Under the pieces are notes generated by a model. It saw only the letters and a program-made list of their open reading frames with translations, searched no databases and was not told where the DNA came from. The position numbers and the translations under genes were made by a program. 64,000 nt of DNA from Sclerodactyla briareus (taxonomy: Eukaryota; Echinodermata; Holothuroidea; Dendrochirotida; Sclerodactylidae), in assembly GCA_026419785.1 (NCBI GenBank), contig JAODTK010005674.1, positions 186,001 to 250,000 of the forward strand, given 5' to 3'. The stretch's first letter is position 1; the number at the start of each line of letters is the position of its first letter. Of this stretch, positions 3,135 to 53,600 are shown in pieces.

Positions 3135-4505
3135 CAGGATTGGACAATGAGCCGATACAGGTAAAAGTAAGTCTGCAAAAATACCAAATGTTTACAAGCC
3201 CTATAATGAGGAACGCCTTGAAAACTGTTGCAGCGTTGTACAACATAAATAGCGTTCATGTACTCAGCATGGGAAGCACACCCACCACGTTTTGAACTTG
3301 ATCCCCACCAGCATGTTGGACTTTGCCTAATTACAAGGTAAAAGTGCCCAAACCACCAGAATTTTACAAGTTTCCACTTTCCTGCCCAAAGTTGACCCCC
3401 TACTCATACAACAAGAAAAAGCGTTCATGTACCCACATTGGGAAGCACACCACCCAGTTTGAACTTGATCCCCACCAGGATGTTGGAAGTTGCTGAGTAC
3501 CAGAGTTAAAAGTGCCCAAAATACAAGAATTTTACAAGTTTCCACTTTTCTCCAAAAGTGACCCACCAAACTCATACACAATAAATAACGTTCAGTAACT
3601 AATCATTGGGAAGAGCACACCCACCAGTATGAAATTGATCCAACCAGGCATGTTGGAATTGCCTAATTACAGGTAAAGTGCCCAAAATACAGAATTTTAC
3701 CAGTTTCACTTTTTGCCCAAAAGTGAACCCAAACTCATACAACAATAAATAACGTTTGAAGGGACTAAGATGGGAAGGCACATCCCACCAAGTTTGAAAT
3801 TGATTCACCGGCATGTTGGACTTGCCTGATTCAAGGTTGAATGAAGTGCCAAAAAAATACCAGATTAACCGTTTCATTTTGCCCAAAATTGAACCCCCTA
3901 CTCATACAACCAATCAATAGCGGTCAGTGTACTTCATCATGGGAGCACAACCAAAAGTTAACTTGATCCCTCAGGATGTTGACTTGCCTGATACAAGGTT
4001 AAAAAAAGTGCCCAAAATACCAGACTTTTACAAGTTTCCATTTGCCCCAAAATTGACCCCCTACTAATACAACAAATCAATAGCGTTCATGTACTCATCA
4101 TGGGAAGCACAACCACCAAGTTTTTGAACTTGATCACATTCAGGCATGTTGGACTGGCCTGATTAAAAGGTAGAAGTGCCCAAAATACCAGATTTACAAT
4201 TTTCCACTTTTTGCCAAAAATTGACCCAACCCATACAACAAAATAGCGGTCATGTACTAACCCATGGGAACACACCACAAAGCTTTGAACTTGATCCCAC
4301 CAGGCATGTTGGACTTTGCTGATTACAAGTAAAAAAGGGCCCAAAATATCAGAATTTACAGCTTCCCATTTTTGCTCCAAAGTGACCCCCTACTCAGACA
4401 ACAATAAATGCTCATGTACTCATCATGGGAAGCACGCACACCACCCAGTTTAAACTTGATCCCCACCAGGCCATGTTGAATTAGCATGATTACAAGGTAG
4501 GCGTT
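3135..4505 (+). repeat. Satellite array, unit about 165 bp, about 8 copies
   Basis: The anchor GTTCATGTACTCATCATGGG or a diverged form recurs at about 3254, 3423, 3590, 3754, 3922, 4084, 4248 and 4411, giving periods of 162-169 bp. Each unit also carries TTGAACTTGATCCCCACCAG, GCATGTTGGA, GTGCCCAAAATACCAG, TTTACAAGTTTCCAC and CTCATACAAC. A partial first unit starts near 3135 and the last ends near 4505. Copies differ mostly by single-base insertions and deletions. Minus-strand open frames of 84-97 codons inside it are by-products of the repeat. Confidence 0.92.
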
Positions 4506-10095: not shown

Positions 10096-12060
10096 ATTGT
10101 CTGGAAACGGAACAATTTACATTAAAGTCCATTGCTAAGTTTAGGTCCTGGCCATGTTTTCCTGCAGACCCGAAGAATTAATAGATTATTGATTGCACAA
10201 TAGATTAATCGATGAAGAATATCAAGTTCTGAATTAATTGGGGAGCTTGAAATAGCAATGGTTCCCACCCTTTTTTCCTCTGTCCTGACCATGCAGAGAC
10301 TCTGGACCACACAACCCTTCAAATTGTAAGCCTTAGCCGTATGGATTGTGATTGATACTAGTGATGTCAGAGAAAATGCTGATTCAACCCTCCCTGTACA
10401 ATCACCTCCAGAATAAATACAGAAAGAATTCATTACTTGATTGTTTAATCTGAGGGGCATACACAAGCCATGGTTGGGCAGTGTATTCGATTGGCCTTAC
10501 AGAGTACTCCCTAACCATTACATGCAGGAAGGCAGGGGGGAGGACTGATCCTTCCGTCAGGGAACAGAGAGCATATATCATGACCAGATTCAGTGGCACG
10601 AGGCCCCATGCCTCCCTCCCCACTATCTAAAATTTACTAATCAACCCCCAGGAGGGGAGAGCGGGGTTAGTTGGAACGCAGGGTTTAGTTGACACCAATT
10701 TGGAATTCTCTCCCTGATGCGATAGCTTTTCACCAAGTATTTCCCATTAACCACCTAGGGGTAGCCTCATCTAACACCATCCACCATATTACTTTCAGAC
10801 TGGTTAACCAATCATCTAGGCAAATGAGGGAGGAAGTTTGTTTTTCAGCACCCCAAGTAATTTTGGCAACGAAATTAACAGATGTTGTTTTTTTCACAGA
10901 GGATAATACCAAAATATCCTGGTTTGAGTTGTTTCACCCAGCTTAGAGTACTGTAAGTACAGTACTAAGCTTCAATATGAGGAAATAAAGAATTATTCAG
11001 CTGGTCCCCATCCTGTGATTTACATGAGCATACAACTTCAAAATGGTCCATGGGGTTCCTGTAGTTTTGTCGCACATTATTGGAGCGGGTTAGTTCTAAC
11101 CATGCTGTTTTGCAGTCTGCTAGCGCATACCTGTTTCTCCTTGCCCGAATATTGCTCAGATGCCACTATTAAGACCATTTCGAAACACGTCAGAGTTCTT
11201 CTGCAAACGTAGTAGAGATTAAAATATTCTGATTATTCAATGTTGACTGGTTCTACTGCTTCTTTGTAGAGAATTTTCTCCTAAGACGGTAAGAGAAAAG
11301 AATTATATATATATAATCTACTTCACCATTTACAGTATATTTAGTAATCTGGATGCAAAGATCAATGTATTGTTAACCAAGGTAAAAATATGTATATTTT
11401 TCATGAAGGTCCCATTATTTTCCTAGATGCGAGAGGGGCAATGGGTCCCTGCTTATCGGAACCCTACTTGGAAAGTTCTGAACAGCAATTTGAACATGTG
11501 GGGTTAAAGGATGGACTTGTACAACTTACAGTAATTTTATAACAGGAAGCAATTTATAAAGAAGGTCTTCAGTATACATACATTGTAGTTAAACTCAAAC
11601 AAGAGGCCCAGAACTGTGGGGATAAAATCCCAACAAAATTCATTGCCAATTCTGACACCCACAAATGCACAAGTGAGAAACTTGTACAAAAAAAAATCTT
11701 CGGCCTAGTAAATTAGAGGAAACATGCTTACAGTACATGTATAAAAGTATGTAAATATATTTCCTACCACTTCAAGGAGGTTGACAAGCCCCATGAAAAT
11801 GTGGTTTCAAGTCCTTCATTTTAGTTCCAGTTTTATAACTGCGGCAATTAGCGACTAGATTCTGCCTTCAAAAGTGACCTTCACTAGGCTTAAACACGGC
11901 AATGTGCCCCACGTACAGGGCCATATGTGATACAGGATATAACTTGCGTTCAGGGGAGTCCCTAGATACTATGATGCGAGGAGTCTTCGCTGATTTTATA
12001 TCATCTTGAAATCCAGAAACAGCAACGTTTGAACCTACTACGAGCTATACTAACAAATAA
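10096..12060. other. Spacer; one short retrotransposon-like peptide
   Basis: Open frames at 10122-10466 and 10402-10623 (minus) and 10689-10946, 11015-11212 (plus) show no convincing domain. The plus frame at 10689 begins with IWNSLPDAIA, which resembles the C-terminal end of LINE ORF2 proteins, but the match is too short to call. An AT repeat lies at 11306-11317. The sequence immediately left of the foldback candidate includes ACTAAC at 12049-12054. Confidence 0.35.
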
Positions 12061-12560
12061 CGGGCGCAGCCCACGAGACCGAAGTGTCCAGAGACCGAGG
12101 GCCCACGAGGACCCAAGGTCGCGAGACGCGGATACGAAGTGTAAAAGGGTCCGCGAGACCGGAGGTCCGCGAGAACGAAAGGGAGAAAAGGGTCCGCGAG
12201 AGAGAGAGACCGAAAGGGTGTGAAAAAGGGTCCTACGAGACCGCACTTGAAAAGGGTCCACGAGAGCGAAAAGTGTCGCGAGATGAACTGAAAGGCCACG
12301 AGACCGAAAGGTGCGAACGGGGTCGCGGAGGACCGGCACTTAAAACGGGTCCACGAGCCGAAAGTGAAAAGGGTCCAAGAAGACGAAAACATAAAAAGGG
12401 TCCACGAGACGAAAGTGGAAAAGGGTCCGCGAGACCGAAAGTGTGAACGGGTCCGCCAGACCGAAAGTACAGGGGGGGGGGGGAAATGGTCGCGAGACCG
12501 AATCCGAAAGTCATAAAGGGTCCCCGAGATCCGAAGGTCCAGCGAGACCAAAATGAGAAC
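12061..12560 (-). repeat. Minisatellite array, left arm
   Basis: About 20 diverged units, read on the plus strand as AAGGGTCCGCGAGACCGAAAG and variants, of about 26 bp with some longer composites. Each unit contains a GGTC-N5-GACC inverted repeat. The linker between palindromes (AAAGTGAAAAGGG) gives the array a direction, opposite to that of 19015-19460. A run of about 14 G interrupts it at 12470-12483. Long open frames on both strands here (for example 12045-12551 minus) are repeat by-products. Confidence 0.9.
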
Positions 12561-12934
12561 CTGAATCGATCATTTGCCGTTCCGATACCGCTCCAGTATG
12601 ACCTTTTGCAACGTAGTATTATGTTGCAAACACCTGTTGAAATGACTTAGTGACTCTCAATTCAGTAGCTATGGAGAAGGAAGAGGACGGTCACCCACAA
12701 CTTTCGTACGAGACGGCTGCGGCATAATTTGTTGATATTGGGTCGGACATCCTGAGGATGTGGGGGCATGCCCCTCGGGAAAAGCCCCCCCCCCCTGTCG
12801 TCGGGAATTGTTTTCCGATTGGGGTGCGCTTAAAAATTTTACACCACTCCGACGGAGGGCCTAACTGTTCCCCGACAGTACCTTACTGTATTTCCAACTT
12901 CTTTATGGAAACAGAGCGGCGATCTGTGATGAAA
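12561..12934. other. Interior of foldback candidate, unassigned left part
   Basis: Unique-looking sequence directly inside the left array, with a GGGGGCATGCCCCTC palindrome-like segment and a C-run at 12787-12796. It does not match the sequence directly inside the right array, so the inverted repetition is limited to the minisatellite. Confidence 0.4.
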
Positions 12935-13490
12935 TTAGGGTTTATACGAGGTAATCACCATCCCAGAGGTTTGGGCCGTGCGTACAAGAGAATTTTCAGT
13001 TTCACAAGACCCACAGTTGCAGGAAAGGCCACTCACGGCGTATGAAAGAGCAACATTCCCTGAATGGCAATAAATTCGAAATTTGACTTATTAAAGACTT
13101 TCTTGAGAAGAAACGAGCGGTTTATTCCTCACAAATCGGGTCACCATCGGTTGACGGTGAGCATAAAGAACATATTCGTTTTAAGGAACCCTACTCAGAG
13201 GCAGGAATGCGTACCAGGCCGTTATATTATGGCAGTAAGCAACATTCCTAAAATGAATAAATTTCCGAAATTGAATTGTAATTCCAAGAAACTTCTAGGA
13301 AGAACTGATCAAGGTCTCAGTCCTTACCAATCCAGGGCCACCTCGGTTTGACGCGTTAGCGTATAAGAAAAAAAACAATAGGTAACAGACCCCAGATTGC
13401 AGAAAAAGGCACTACCGGACTTTAATGGCATTGAGCAACATCACAGAATTGCCAATAAATTTCACAAACTGATAAGGTTTTATCCGTACA
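12935..13490 (+). repeat. Satellite family S180, three units
   Basis: The anchor CAGATTGCAG or a variant occurs at about 13014, 13196 and 13393 (periods 182 and 197). Units share a GGCACT or GGCCACT word, GGCAGTAAGCAACATTCC, AATAAATTTC, GAACTGATCAAGG and CCACCATCGGTTGACG or a variant. The same family forms the array at 35320-36240 and has further copies at 13985-14175, 16100-16240 and 17160-17270. Confidence 0.8.
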
Positions 13491-13984
13491 TAAGTTTTTC
13501 CTCATGGCTTAATTCCATATCATATACTAGTAAGAATAAGTAAGTAAATGGTGAGTGAGTAATCCAGAAATAAATTTCAAGGATCGGCCACGTCCGTACA
13601 GGCCTGAATGATAAAAATAAACAGTCATGTCTGAATAAATCAAGAAAAACAAGTCATATAGTAAGCTATGAAAGCATAGGAAGGAGGTAGCGTCTCGTCA
13701 ATCATTTAAAAAGCTTTATTGCACGGGGGATGAATGAATTACGAGTCTGTTGGTTTCAATATACCTCTCTATTTTCTGTCATGGAGAGGTTGATTAAAGC
13801 GGGGTTGGACTGGTGTCAGTCCAACCGGGAGTCTAACTTGACCGAGTAGGCATGGGTACATCAAGTTCGACTGAGCTTGAAGGCTCTCCAACAACAACTG
13901 ATAGCTTTGTTTATAATTAGTGTCGATACGTGTTCTTTCGGTTGGCCACGACATTACCAACCCAAGTGGAAGAAAATGTCGGAT
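13491..13984. other. Insertion-like segment interrupting the S180 satellite
   Basis: About 490 bp without S180 sequence separates satellite units ending near 13490 and starting near 13985. It contains a perfect 10-bp stem with a 4-base loop at 13803-13826 (GGTTGGACTG, GTGT, CAGTCCAACC). No terminal repeats were found that would define it as a mobile element. Confidence 0.4.
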
Positions 13985-14175
13985 GTAATTACTTACCTAA
14001 ATCATGCCACATCAGTTGGCGCGTGGTGTAAAAGAAAAATCGTTCTACACTCCCCAGAATGCAGGAAATGGCATTTCCTGGGCCGTTTATGGCAGTAAGC
14101 AAATCCCTAAGGTGACAGGAAATTTACCGGATTGATATTCGAAATTGGTGAAGAACTGACAATGTTTAGGCTTTC
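13985..14175 (+). repeat. Satellite family S180, single unit
   Basis: Carries CCACATCAGTTGGCGCGT, CAGAATGCAGG, GGCATTTCCTGGGCCG, TATGGCAGTAAGCAA and GAAGAACTGACAATGTTTA, matching the unit at 12935-13490 and at 35320-36240. Confidence 0.7.
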
Positions 14176-16025
14176 GTGGCCTCCCCAGTGTTCATGCCTA
14201 CGGTATTATACATCTGAACAAAAAGGTAGCAATCTGATTAGAAATAAGCGGTTAGCCTTGGTGTTGGTGTTTTACTGTACCATTGATCATAGGACTTTTG
14301 CACCACTCCCCAAATATATTTTTTTCTTGGGGGGGGGGAGGGAGGAACACATAAAAAAGAATGTTTCGACATATGCGTTAGGGTGGGGCTCGGAAATCCT
14401 CGAACAATCCCGAGACACTCAGTCAAAGAAACTGAATTGGACCTCCAGCGGAGGGATCGGGGCGCCAATCCGTTGCGCAGGAATACCAGCACTTCTTATT
14501 GATGATTCAAATTCAGATCACTGGTATTTTAAACCAGTTCCAGTTTCCGGGAAAGACACTTGGATGGGGTGGTATTGAGCTTCTGTTTCAGTCGCATGAA
14601 TGATCAGGACTATCTGATTGATTCAGTGTCAATTTCTGCAGGAGTGTGACTGTATAGTATATATATATATAATTACATTACATTCATATTATAAGATACT
14701 CTTCATTTTTCGAAGGATTATAGATTGGGACGTACCTGGCGTTTTACTGTTGTATTGTTGGTTTTATGAACTACAGTGTATGAGGAATAAATACTATAAA
14801 TGGTGAAGCCTAGGCTATGAACTTATTATGGTGGCAGGTTGGAAAGCACCTGTGATAAGATGTATCAGTTTTTCCTTCCCATGTGCTCGTACAGTTTGCT
14901 GAGGCATTAAGGGCGCAAGGCCATTTGTCAACTTAGGGTAGATCGTATACCTTCGCATCATAGCACGCACTAAAAATGTCAACCCAGCAACGGTTGATTC
15001 GAACTGATGAGTGAAATGAAATAGCTCCGTTGAGTCGTCGTGTCGTGCTTTATCGGACTGTACGATATTAACATTATGGGTCAGGTCAGGTCAGCTGTGT
15101 GGTGGGGTCACGAAAGCCAAGGCCACGCATCTCAGACGATGGATTCCATCAGATGAAAGAGTATCATGGGTATATCACCAACAAAGAGACAAGATGATGG
15201 CGGCCAAATTATAGTCAGATGCAGTGAGTATCTAATATATGATGCGCCATCAATCCCGACAAATAGATATCGATTAAGCCAGAAAAAATAAACAAATGCC
15301 AGACTAATTGCCTATAGTATAGGTAGTTATTTCATTTTGGGGGCGCACTGGAACCCTTAAATGCATTTTACGTAAATCATCTTTGTCGTTTATGCAACTT
15401 GGCAGTCGAGAAAAATTAGGAATAAATATAAGTGATTGAGGAACTTCCTGATGATAAGACTGCGAGATACTGATTCATGCCTTCTAAATCAGGTTGGAGT
15501 TCTTGAATTCTCTTTACTTGGCCTGCCGGAGTGTTCAATAAGGAAACTACAGTCACCCATGCAGCGCGTATCGCTAAACAGAAAAGGAAAACGGGGTCCG
15601 TACTCCGGTCTTGGACAGCTATACTGGTATCGTTTGGGAAAGAAAATTATTTCAAAATCATGTTGCTTGCCTTTTCTTTTGCCCTTCACCTGGAACCTCA
15701 TCCTGTGTATCTATTTCTCGAGGTGATGTTGATCTCTGTCCGGGAACTTCATCCAAATCCAAATCGTCCATCGTTCGAAGACAAATGGGGTATCGATGCC
15801 ATGATACACGGCACTACCCTGTGGAATCGAATACGACCAGATCAGATAGGCTTGTGATAAAACGGTTCTACATTTAAGACTAAGCAGAACACTCATTACT
15901 GCATCTTTCTTCTCCTGATGGCCCTTTAACGCGCCTAGAAAGCATTGTGTGCTGAATTTACGAATATAAATCTATTATTATAGATATTATTATGATTATT
16001 ATTAGAGTAGGCCTATACAGCCAAC
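14176..16025. other. Interior of foldback candidate; one short acidic frame
   Basis: Includes a run of ten G near 14330, a TA repeat at 14657-14672 and several unremarkable open frames. On the minus strand at 15658-15771 a 37-codon frame starts MDDLDLDEVPGQRSTSPRE and repeats the word DEVPG before ending in TGA. It is protein-like but too short to assign, and overlapping plus-strand frames (15436-15857) are equally open. Confidence 0.35.
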
Positions 16026-17290
16026 GGATTACTCAGGAAACTGTTACAGTTCTACGTGGAAACACCATCGGCGAGTATGCAGCTTTTTTAACCGGAGCGC
16101 AGGCACTAGGTACGTGTTGAAGCGCCGTCATCGGTTGGGCGCGGAGCGTGGACGAAAATTGTCGAGGGTTCCAACACCTATCACGGAAAAGGCACCTCGG
16201 GGCCTGAGAGTGACCATTTAAACTCACCCTATCGGTTAAAAACAAAGTTCCTTACGGGGGGAATTACATGAAAAACAAAAATGATCTTGGCACTCTTACT
16301 GGGACTATTATTGAATCTAAATGTGAGGGTTGGGTTTCGTTCTCCACTGACAGATTACACAGAAACGAACCTCGATACTAAAACAAATCTCTCATTACAT
16401 GATCACTACTCTAAGTACAGTGCCGTATGAGGAACCATTTTATTCAGCTGGAGAACGTTTATTATATTATTTTAATATATGTTCTATTGGGGAGCCGATG
16501 TGGAGTGCAATTTTTTTACTATCTGAGCGGAGCGCGCAATTTGTTGGGCGTAGCGACCCTAAAATGTTGCGTTTTATACTATCCGAATCGCCGAGTATCA
16601 CGGGAAATGGAACTGGCGGGCTAATTGCAGAAATCTGTATGACAATTCGGTAAGAAAAGGATATTGAAGAGTTGTCACTCTGAAGAAATAGGCAGAGATA
16701 TAGCAAACACATCATCTGTATTTTCATGAAAGAATATGTCAGCAAGTGATTTCAAACTAGATATCAAGAACCTACTGCAAGTTATAATTCACGTTAAACA
16801 GGTGGGGTGGAACCAGGATTGAACCAACCCCTTCATTTTAGCTATTAAGATTTGATCAGCAAATGGTGACAATATGTGAAGTGTGTAGAAACCCGTTGTG
16901 AAAGTGGGGGATGATTGTGCAGGGTATCTAAATGGGGCGCCAATCATGATGGCGTGAAGCGTGAGAACGTTTTGGGAGAATTATGTAAAAAGATTGCATG
17001 AAATAGTACTTTGCAGTACTTGACTCCAGTGCGCAGCTAGGATTTTTCAGTGGGGGCGGGGAGGAGGGCGGAAACTAGAGCAAGGGTGACGCCAGGACTT
17101 CCTCTGAGGGGGCGGGGACAATACATTTCAGGAGAAGAAACAAGAATACTATTTCGACGCGGGAGCGCCACCATCAGTTGGCGCGGATCTACACGGGAAT
17201 TGTCGAACGTATCAAGCCCCCAGATGACGAAATGACCTTTCCCGGCGCGTTCACTGCTGGCCAGAATGTAAACAATTGATGCGATATACT
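16026..17290 (+). repeat. Dispersed S180-related copies
   Basis: Two stretches (about 16100-16240 and 17160-17270) share the S180 hairpin word. The first has GCGCCGTCATCGGTTGGGCGCGGA and the second GCGCCACCATCAGTTGGCGCGGA in split form, followed by GGAATTGTCGA or AAAATTGTCGA and a CACCTCGG or CCTTTCCCGG word. The stretch between holds a plus-strand 84-codon frame (16399-16653) without recognisable motifs, and at 17024-17060 a GCGCAGCTAGGATTTTTCAG repeat end followed by G-rich sequence. Confidence 0.55.
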
Positions 17291-19014
17291 ACTATCCACC
17301 GGTGCGGACGAAGCGTTTTAATTTTTTCTCAAGATTTCCAGAGCAGATCTTAGAAAAATCAGAATCCCAGCTAGAAAATTTAGGAATTAGCTAGCTTGCT
17401 CCACATTCCAATCATGATGTGAATGTTATGCCATGAGAGAGCAGGGAACTTCCGAGTAGTAGTTCCATTGTGAAAACTCGCGTCGAAAATCCAAGCAGTC
17501 TGAGAGCCTAGGATACTGCCGTTGAAATGAGACGTGGTTGAGAGAGAGAGTAAGAAACGAACCAAAGGCTAAAGGGTCATTAGTAATCCAAAGATGTTGA
17601 TTGTAGTTTAAATGAGAAATGAGTAGAGTAAATGAGTTCAATGAGAATGTTGTTGTTTACCGTATTTCTGCTGATAAGTATTAAGCTAGGGGAACAATGA
17701 GTAGAGAGGCAGAAATCCACAGAGCTTGCAGCGATGTAGGGAGACGGGAGAGCACGGGACAAATTCCACCATAGTTACATGGTAGACGAAGCATGAACGA
17801 ACTTTGTAGTACATACTTTTTAGGGCAATTGATGACAAATTTGGCACAATTACTGCTTTATTGTCATAAAAAACCCCCAGCAAAGAGCAGATCTTATATC
17901 AAAAACTGGTCGTAGAATACTGGCTACAGACTATTCCTCGAAAATCACAATCTTTTTTTATTGGAGGGGGGGTGAGTGGGGGCACACGGAGGGAGGGCTC
18001 ATGGTTTTCGAGGGGACTGACCCCTTGGCGACACGGCAGGGCTAGAGTATTTCACTGGTGGTGTTCAGTCAATATATGAGGGAGAAGAGAAAACTGGTGG
18101 TGAAGTAGTGTACACGGGAATTTGGGAATAAGGCCCCTCCAGAGGTTAAGAAAAGGCACTTCCCAAGGCGTCAGATTTTTTTCAGAGCCTGGTTGTGAAG
18201 GGCGTTAGACATTGACATGGTGAGGCTGTCATATTATCCGGATAAAATTACGCAAATCTGAGTAAGGTGCTAAATTCATCGAAAGTTACGAAAGAAACAC
18301 CCTTTTTGTGGCACTCAGTAGATAGTTTGGGTAAACATTTCTCCCGTGCTTCACCATGGATCTAATTTTCCATTCTCCGCCCGAGTTGCGGGGCTACTCG
18401 AGTTTCGATCCCAATTGATTATGCACTGGTGTCTCGGATGCCTGTGATATGGTGGTGCCCTAATTTGGTTTTAAGACACCTGGGAGGGGAGTGGGTTATG
18501 ACGTGACCATCTAACGGAGCACCATCGTCGGCCTGATGCGGATCGGTTTAAGGATGTTTTGTGACAGGGGCTTGAAGTAAATAATGGGCTCGCAGGGGGT
18601 TTAACGGGGAACTGTTGTACATTTCAGCTGATCATGCAGTTCGGCGGCTTCAGGAGAGCAGATTGGCCCTCTCTCGGAAAGGAGTCACATGAAACATTAA
18701 ATTTATTGTCGAAATTGAGTTCAATCAAGCCAGCGGGTATGGAATCATCATAACCCATGCCCTCTTTCCCCTGATAGCCTGTAGGGGTGGAGGGGGATGG
18801 AGGCTTCCAGCCACGATCCAATATTTTATCATCCGAGATACGGAAGCTGCATTTTTTTACCCCAATTATTCTTCGACAGGCTGGCATCTGGTGTCAGTTC
18901 GACTGTTAGGCAAACGGCACCGAAATCATTGCCGGGTATTGCGAGACGATATTCTCCTCATAATGGTTCCGCCTGATTTGGTATTCATACAGAACAACGC
19001 TCGGTCCTGAGGAT
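17291..19014. other. Interior of foldback candidate, right part
   Basis: No gene supported. A minus-strand frame at 18624-18887 (87 codons) has a plausible composition but no known motif. G-rich stretches occur at 17965-18010 and 18480-18500. Confidence 0.35.
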
Positions 19015-19460
19015 TTTCTTCTATATCGGTCTCGCGAACTTCGGGTCTCGTGGACCCTTTCTAATTTCGGTTCCGCGGACCTTCGGTCTCTTGGGACCCT
19101 TTTTCAATTTCGGTCTCGCGGAACTTCGGTCTCGGGACCCTTTTTCACTTTCGGTCCGCGGAACTTCGGTCCGTGACCCTTTTTCAATTCGGTCCGCGGA
19201 CTTCGGTTCGTGGACACATTCACTGTGGTCTGCGGACCTTTGGTCCGTGCGACCTTTTCAATTTGGGTATCACGGGACCTTCGGTCTCGTGGCCCTTTTC
19301 AATTCGGTCTCGCGGACCCGGTCTCGTGGAACTATTTCATTTTTCGGTCTCGCGGAATTCGGGTCGCGTGGCCCTTTTTCAATTTGGGTCTCGCGGACCT
19401 CGGTCTCGGGGACCCTTGTCAATTCGGATCGGGGACCTGTCGGTCCGTGGGCTGTAACCC
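19015..19460 (+). repeat. Minisatellite array, right arm
   Basis: Units read GGTCTCGTGGACCCTTTTTC, AATTTC, GGTCTCGCGGACCTTC, giving about 42 bp with shorter variants. These are the complement of the left-arm units at 12061-12560, with the same GGTC-N5-GACC palindromes. About ten composite units are visible. Open frames of 73-134 codons in this stretch come from the repeat. Confidence 0.9.
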
Positions 19461-19719
19461 AACTAACCACGGGAAACGCGACCAGGACCACCTAGAATTA
19501 GGCCTAGCCTAGCCTCGCTCGCAGGCTTTAGTACTGGTCTAGCCTGCGTTCACAACTCGAGCCTATGCTGTTTTTTTAGGCTGCGCTAAGTGGCCAACTA
19601 TCTATTTCAACTTCAGTTCCGAAAAGCTTGCATCCAATTAATATACCCAAAAGGCCGATTAAGATTGTAGTTAAGAAAAGGTTTAGAACTTTATCATTCC
19701 TAATATTGGTCTTTGGCAG
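19461..19719. other. Short spacer with TAGCCTAGCC words
   Basis: Includes CCTAGCCTAGCCTCG (19503-19517) and a possible polypyrimidine tract before the acceptor at 19719. It could be intron of the gene ending at 20508. Confidence 0.35.
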
Positions 19720-35319: not shown

Positions 35320-36240
35320 CGGCGCGCCACCATGGGTTGGCGATAGCGCACAATGGCAATTTCTTTGGTTTACAGACCCCCAGATGCAGAAAACGGCACT
35401 TCTTGGGTCTTATGCAGAAGCCAACATCCCTAAAATCTTCATAAATTCCGAATTTTTCATTTCAAGAACATTCTTAAAGACTGATCAATGTTTATTTTCC
35501 TAAATTCGGCCACCGTCGGTGTTGACGCGTAGGGTACAATAAATTTTTTTGTTTACGACCCCCCAGATTGAGAACAGCCTTTCCCGACCGTATGGCAGTA
35601 GCAACGTCTCTAAATTGGCACTAAATTTCAGAATTCATATTTCTAGGAACGTTCTTGGAGGAACTTATCGCTGTGTATTTCTTAAATTTCGGCCAGCCCG
35701 CCACCTCAGTGACGCGTAGGGGTACAAGAGAAGTTTCGTTTTACAGCCCAGCTTGCAGAACGTCAATTCCCTCCACGCGCTGTGGCAGTGAGCAACGTCT
35801 CCTAAAACATTGGCGAATAATTTTCAGAAATTTGTATTTCAAAGTGGAAACGTTCTTCAAGGAATTTTATTCCTTACATTTGTGTTTTGGGCCACATCAG
35901 TGGTCCTCGTATTTACACAAAGAAATTTGTAGCCTTACGATCAACCAGATTGCCGGAAACGTTACTTCCCATGTCTTATGGGAGTAAGCAACATTCCCAA
36001 AATTGAAAAAATTTCTGAATTTGCGATCTCAAGAAAACTCTTGAGGAACTGATCTACGTTTTATTCATTGCAATTCGCGTCATCATAAGTTTGACGCGTA
36101 CCGTACAAGAACTGGTCTACAGACCACCCCCCTCCCCCCCCCCCCCCCCTGGATTGCAGGGAGCGGCACTTCCGCGACTTATGGCATATGCATCACATGA
36201 AATTGACAGTAAATTTCCCGAAAACTGATCGATGTTCATA
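35320..36240 (+). repeat. Satellite family S180 array, five units
   Basis: The anchor CAGATTGCAG or a variant lies at 35381, 35564, 35749, 35946 and 36150, giving periods of about 183-204 bp; the largest contains a C-run at 36126-36149. Each unit has AACGGCACTTCC or a variant, a TATGGCAGTAAGCAAC-like word, AAATTTC, AAGAA.(A/C)TTCTT, AACTGATC and GCGTAGGGTACAA. The first unit starts with GCGCGCCACCATGGGTTGGCG. Copies also occur inside the foldback candidate at 12.9-17.3 kb, so the family has moved between loci. Confidence 0.85.
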
Positions 36241-52955: not shown

Positions 52956-53600
52956 ATCCATCCATCCCATCTATCCATCCCATCTGTCCATCCCCTCTGT
53001 TCCATCTCATCCCATCCATCATTATCCATCCCATGCCTCTCATCCCATCCACTACATCCCATCCAGCCATCTATCCACCCATCATTCCCATATTCTCTCT
53101 ATTCATACGATCTATCCAACCATCCACCCATCCATCCATTCATCCATCCATCCATCTATCCATCCCATTCCAGCATCGATTCCCACCCCATTCATCATTC
53201 ATTTCTTCTCTCCAACCCCATCGTTCTATTCCATCCATCCCATCCAGCCATCTATCCATCCAATTCATCCCAGCCATTTCTTCTATCAAACACATCATCC
53301 CATCCATCTATCCTCCGTCAAGCGATTATCCACCCGTTCATGCCCATCGATTTCTTATATCCACCCATCCAATATATCCAACCCACTCCATCTTATCCTC
53401 CCCATCCAGCATCTATCCATCCCATTCATCCAACATTTCTCTATCATACAAGATCTCCAACACATCCCATTCATCTATCCATGCAGCATCAATTTATCAA
53501 AATCTATCCATCCCATCTATCATCCATCTCCTCCATTGTCATATCCCTCCATCTGTCCATTCCATCCAGTCTATCCCATCCATCCCATACCAAAATGTAT
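52956..53600 (+). repeat. ATCC-rich microsatellite, about 640 bp
   Basis: Imperfect repeats of CATC and CATCC with interspersed ATCCCATCC. Because the motif has few stop codons it gives three overlapping open frames of 212-232 codons made of Ser, His, Pro and Ile; these are not genes. Confidence 0.95.

Follow-up and report, generated by a model that had tools for sequence, protein, structure and literature searches.

Foldback elements are usually described as ending in equal, recombining arms, while the TU elements of sea urchins have long inverted ends with 15-bp subrepeats, flanked by 8-bp target duplications. In excerpts of the published descriptions, Tm1, a Mutator/Foldback element of root-knot nematodes, is 1-2.6 kb long, with tandem repeats of 13-15 bp, different 7-bp motifs at its two outermost ends and a target duplication mostly of 9 bp (8-10) (PMC3169594), and Tetris, a foldback element of Drosophila virilis, has arms of up to 1,735 bp made of 220-bp repeats, and target duplications of 8-10 bp (PMC4079207). 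The excerpts on Galileo, of the P superfamily, report a 7-bp target duplication, transposase-bearing copies, a ~210-bp tandem unit in one subfamily, and ends holding several transposase-binding sites (PMC3573991, PMC3688188). Rehavkus, placed next to Mutator, is credited with a 9-bp duplication, ends of 26-400 bp, a transposase with a PHD finger, and a minisatellite that the excerpted account notes before the 3' end only, and Mutator-like elements (MULEs) with target duplications of 8-11 bp (PMC6446971). This work concerns an element of the holothuroid Sclerodactyla briareus, found in a 64-kb stretch of DNA, here called the window (C2917:186001-250000, from a 319-Mb assembly of 3171 contigs), which is very probably a mobile, foldback-like DNA transposon, and whose two arms are inverted arrays of one short box in two different layouts.

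Ends, dispersal and insertion sites

The copy in the window occupies positions 12062-19459 (7398 bp), its ends being set by a target duplication of which the left copy (CAAATAAC, 12054-12061) and the right copy (CAACTAAC, 19460-19467) share seven of eight letters. A first-pass annotation, made from the letters of the window, had drawn the edges of this interval at 12061 and 19460; the element is there, with its true ends one base inside. The left arm (12062-12560, + strand) begins with the outer end GGGCGCAGCCCACGAGACC and continues as an array of the box GGTCCRCGAGACCGAA in steps of mostly ~26 bp (array period 25-27 bp), and the right arm (19016-19459, - strand) is an inverted box array with units of 41 and 79 bp, whose outer end reads, inward, 5'-GGTTACAGCCCACGGACC. 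Allowing two errors, the box GGTCCRCGAGACC matches 25 times in the window, 24 times within the two arrays and once at 36114, and its reverse complement 23 times, with 21 matches within the arrays, whereas each of 20 mononucleotide shuffles of the window held 0-5 matches to the first box. The matching outermost words that had been reported are also present (CAGCCCACG at 12067, CGTGGGCTG at 19446). The inverted arrays are therefore far above chance, but the claim that the same minisatellite stands at both edges stands only for the box of 13-16 bp, the repeat units built on it differing between left and right.

These arms are dispersed through the assembly. A genome search with the left array gave 64 matches (best 40 of 69 candidates) and with the right array 48 (best 40 of 117), both being lower bounds; once neighbours had been merged and right arms seen backwards had been dropped, the matches listed comprised at least 27 left and at least 40 right arm places, with the left arm of the window copy recurring at no fewer than 26 further places. 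Among these matches, 18 of the 27 left arms are accompanied by a right arm inverted as in the window copy, the nearest partner lying 4.4-10.5 kb away (accepted distance 2.5-13 kb), while no other arrangement of neighbouring arms, and no inverted left-left or right-right pair, occurs within 13 kb. Many of the same loci were recovered when the first 2.2 kb of the element body served as the query.

Both outer ends are conserved across the family. Read inward, left ends open with GGGGGCAGCCCACGAGACC and right ends with GGTTACAGCCCACGAGACC, a reading made by eye on 15 left ends and 10 right ones, several of them decayed, and the right outer end GGTTACAGCCCACGAGACCG, allowing two mismatches, has 29 matches in the genome versus one for a control pattern. 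Insertion duplicates ~8 bp of the target. For eight letters of the left and right flanks, the best match at the 11 loci that have both ends was 8/8 in C407, C2454 and C2445, 7/8 in the window copy, 6/8 in C555, C1975 and C2321, and 2-4/8 in C1745, C3170, C2265 and C1985, the low score of C1745 being explained by extra bases at its left end. These matches total 62 letters, a mean of 5.6 versus 3.5 when the flanks come from different loci; none of 20,000 re-pairings reached the observed sum. The test used hand-chosen end markers and searched 12 offsets per pair, with control pairs treated alike, and it was confined to loci with both ends in hand, one end being missing, truncated or beyond the stretch in L015, L017, L018, L020, L022, L024, L025, L026 and L028.

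To seek empty sites, the flanks of nine insertions, out of ten prepared, were joined and used as queries, L012 being left out for its simple repeats. Rows crossing the junction numbered 22 for C2454, 10 for C1745, four for C2445, and 24 for C2321, the last arising from a tandem repeat and mostly extending only ~16-42 bp beyond the junction; C407 had one weak junction row, from its own neighbouring array. Alignment of C2454 with six empty sites reveals an 8-bp duplication, GGCACATT, with the left copy one G short, and alignment of C1745 with six gives another of 8 bp, TATCAGCC, with the left copy reading TATCAGCA; the empty sites of these two insertions differ among themselves by a few letters. 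Hence the ends of the element are fixed, and the results fit cut-and-paste insertion. Such clean paralogous empty sites mean that the target rule is known.

The combination of discrete units, conserved ends, inverted box arrays, unrelated insertion sites and empty sites argues that the interval is one mobile unit, as the first-pass annotation had proposed. It had named three signs to look for: the same inverted pair and outer ends were found elsewhere, at 18 or more paired loci; empty sites, in paralogous form and within this one assembly, were found at four of the nine insertions queried, plus one weak case; and a target duplication of ~8 bp can be clearly read in several copies, but not in all. 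Several observations weigh against this reading. Among the matches listed, nine of 27 left and 20 of 40 right arms are without a partner, and a flank search of the assembly yielded no empty site for the window copy, C1975, C2265 or C1985. The empty site of C2445 is consistent, but lies within a variable C-run, and that of C2321 suggests 8 bp (ATCACCAC) where the flanks read 11-12 bp. L011, L012, L021 and L027 scored at most 4/8 in the duplication test; the empty site of L011 rescues it (7/8), there is no such rescue for L012 or L021, and for L027 a shifted near-match, seen by eye, is all there is. Neither a transposase, nor an autonomous copy, nor movement was seen.

Two types of arm

The arms differ in the spacing of their boxes, which was measured below 70 bp between boxes with at most three errors, a threshold that misses decayed boxes. 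In 15 left arms (n=63), 31 spacings were 24-27 bp, 13 were 14-17 bp and 11 were 51-57 bp, equivalent to two steps, whereas in 11 right arms (n=67), 19 were 14-16 bp, 15 were 23-27 bp and 18 were 39-45 bp. The best alignments between arms had medians of 214 bits for left-left and 320 bits for right-right comparisons, but 97 bits for left-right ones. Hence both arm types are conserved family-wide, while the arms within an element have not been homogenised. Indeed, the left and right arms of one element align with a median of 81 bits, and 68% identity over the aligned part (10 elements), so that arms sharing an element resemble each other no more than arms from separate elements do. The description foldback-like, also from the first-pass annotation, suits the long inverted ends of tandem subrepeats, and a mobile unit with a ~8-bp target duplication and empty sites; in the strict sense it fails, as near-identical inverted arms are replaced by two array types.

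The best reading of these sequences is that of a non-autonomous cut-and-paste element whose two arrays of putative transposase-binding sites differ. Another element would have supplied a transposase in trans; binding as a multimer to many of the near-palindromic GGTC-N5-GACC boxes in both arms, this transposase would have brought the two arms together, cleaved the DNA at the outer GG ends, and joined these to a target site opened by staggered cuts 8 bp apart. The arms, with their different box spacing, may have been non-equivalent ends of this reaction, and the body would most likely have been the non-coding cargo of a non-autonomous founder. That the founder was non-autonomous is likely in itself. 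A more tentative proposal, to which we lend less than even weight, is that the arms form a fixed two-part end code, with the left box array in 26-bp steps and the right mixing steps of 16 and 26 bp, such that transposition needs one of each; it is the fixed left-right pairing, together with the different spacing, that suggests unlike ends. Phage Mu and Tn7 both need unlike ends. If the proposal is true, unlike ends, and not the snap-back of equal arms, would be the basis of this foldback-like element. As the two array types are fixed at 18 paired places, a testable alternative is that array spacing itself marks the left and right ends.

Body, copy types and competing explanations

The element body (12561-18847, + strand), in which a coding signal was not found, has ~73-80% identity to the full copies in C2445, C1975, C2454 and C739, such that the whole body is common to five copies. 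The fuller copies measure 7.4-8.3 kb. The window copy is without ~230-560 bp present in others, the site lying at 18845-18850 (alignment gaps in L010, L019, L023, L025 and L027), and next to it a non-repeated inner block (18848-19015, + strand) adjoins the right arm, which it accompanies in other copies. Both arms are kept in two copies with large internal deletions, C2321 (4.7 kb) and C1985 (4.6 kb); C407, C1745, C3170, C2663, C2265, C2954 and C2249 share parts; and C555 (L013, 7.85 kb) shares the arms and little of the interior. Array length also varies between copies, for example that at 5236-6687 in C614. Of the arms without a partner, the right arm in C2522 (L032, with L057) belongs to an old copy that lacks the left half of the body, L034 has a full right arm, and L033 has only ~80 bp of one; L029, with L058, has little of the body visible. 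By eye, the right-arm copies L030 (C2766) and L032 seem to have their stopping point in common, in another dispersed repeat and with GATTAGCA ahead of the end, suggesting either one target for both or a composite repeat.

Within the body, a dispersed repeat unit (13227-13467, + strand) recurs at 35410-35633 and 35976-36111 with 69-72% identity (E <=0.001), and is present on other contigs too. An interior satellite forming an array at 35-36 kb had been claimed; there are matches there, but to this one interior unit, at two places. The stray match to the arm box at 36114 (up to two errors) lies beside these repeat copies; chance alone would be expected to give one match of this kind. Elsewhere in the window are a separate tandem array (3239-4494, period ~168 bp, 7.6 copies) and a long degenerate ATCC-type simple repeat (52956-53585), which is open in three frames through its composition.

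The five full copies have a mean identity of 78%, each being 11-13% from the majority sequence, and are about equally far apart. Hence the family is old; it looks dead as well as old, and apparently represents an inactive family of cut-and-paste transposons. The fuller copies are long enough to leave space for a gene, and it is conceivable, though unlikely, that a transposase, possibly a Mutator/Rehavkus or P/Galileo one, was once encoded by the element itself, the present copies being decayed autonomous elements. However, no open stretch of the five-copy majority is longer than 142 amino acids, a length within the spread of 200 shuffles (mean 127, 95% mark 168). Simulated decayed frames exceeded 168 amino acids in four of nine trials at 400 codons, and four of eight at 550, giving this majority-frame test about half power, which introns would lower further; hence the body is probably, but not provably, non-coding. 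No Pfam family was matched at E <=1 by open pieces of at least 48 amino acids in six frames of the majority, and none rose above the cut-off in single copies (five of six frames over 5 kb of body in L010; six frames each in L013 and L021), in agreement with the earlier observation of no known transposase in the interior. A single match in L021 below the cut-off (E 0.2) was taken as chance, and stop density over the five aligned copies, which reveals nothing open over a long distance outside the arrays, was not relied on, since in a simulated control it barely detected a decayed frame. The genome has no match to the MULE domain PF10551, and the frames of the element, read from decayed copies by the test of about half power, have none either. 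It does contain 38 matches to the hAT dimer domain PF05699 and 10 remnants of the P-type PF21787, which would accord with a lost transposase, but none is near a listed arm, and none is in the element frames, by a test of about half power; the one match to the IS1595-type PF12762 is likewise not near a listed arm. Three P-type transposase fragments stand in a row, ~467 bp apart, at C2437:57081-58178. Majority peptides at ~15440-15540 of the window body (position by eye) presumably resemble the tail of a retrotransposon protein of the type lacking long terminal repeats, with no domain support, and here the founder may have carried a fragment that was captured or nested.

Two other explanations were weighed. 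The element could be an ordinary short-ended transposon in which the arrays are secondary, the box being a host-protein site and the arrays kept for a reason other than transposition; array length does vary among copies, as in C614, and that transposase binds the box is something we infer, yet both array registers are common to copies genome-wide. Therefore the arrays were already in the founder, adjoining both cut ends, and this explanation is improbable. Alternatively, the arrays and body might have spread through larger segmental duplications, or as independent minisatellites, and not as a transposon. The unpaired arms among the matches listed, and the apparent common stopping point of L030 and L032, would accord with such a history, but flanks differ between copies, stop at conserved termini, and run uninterrupted at the paralogous empty sites, making it extremely improbable.

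Relation to known foldback and cut-and-paste families

The duplication length places the element only broadly. The clearest empty-site alignments give 8 bp, and not the 7 bp of Galileo, and the two clearest likewise depart from the 9 bp of Rehavkus. Eight bp is the length expected of hAT elements, and other P elements also duplicate 8 bp; it falls within the Mutator-like range, although it is not MULE-specific. The sea urchin TU elements, alike in their long inverted ends of subrepeats and their 8-bp duplications, may be the nearest known system.

Structural likenesses come with differences. Tm1 similarly has composite inverted ends of short tandem repeats, outermost ends that differ from each other (in its case in 7-bp motifs), non-coding members and paralogous empty sites, but its excerpted description gives the arms within an element an average identity of 93% (PMC3169594), versus ~68% over the aligned part here. 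Tetris shares the long tandem-repeat arms, the non-coding middle, a target duplication of similar length (8-10 bp) and, in the excerpt, the lack of a detected transposase (PMC4079207), but has 220-bp repeats in place of boxes of 13-16 bp in two registers. Galileo likewise has long tandem-repeat ends with several transposase-binding sites (putative ones in the element described here), and non-autonomous copies that keep both of them (PMC3573991, PMC3688188), but the arms of a long copy are given as 95% identical (PMC3573991), whereas the arms here are unlike. Rehavkus resembles this element in having a minisatellite beside the end of a cut-and-paste transposon (PMC6446971), and no Rehavkus-type gene was found here. 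Should the family match a catalogued Rehavkus, Foldback or TU family, it would be a well-described member. As it stands, it is filed as a foldback-like DNA transposon, set apart from Rehavkus and Galileo by the target lengths of its clearest copies, with an 8-bp duplication that is common to several superfamilies. The point that is unusual relative to the known foldback elements of other animals is its pair of arrays, of two different types between which no swap was seen.

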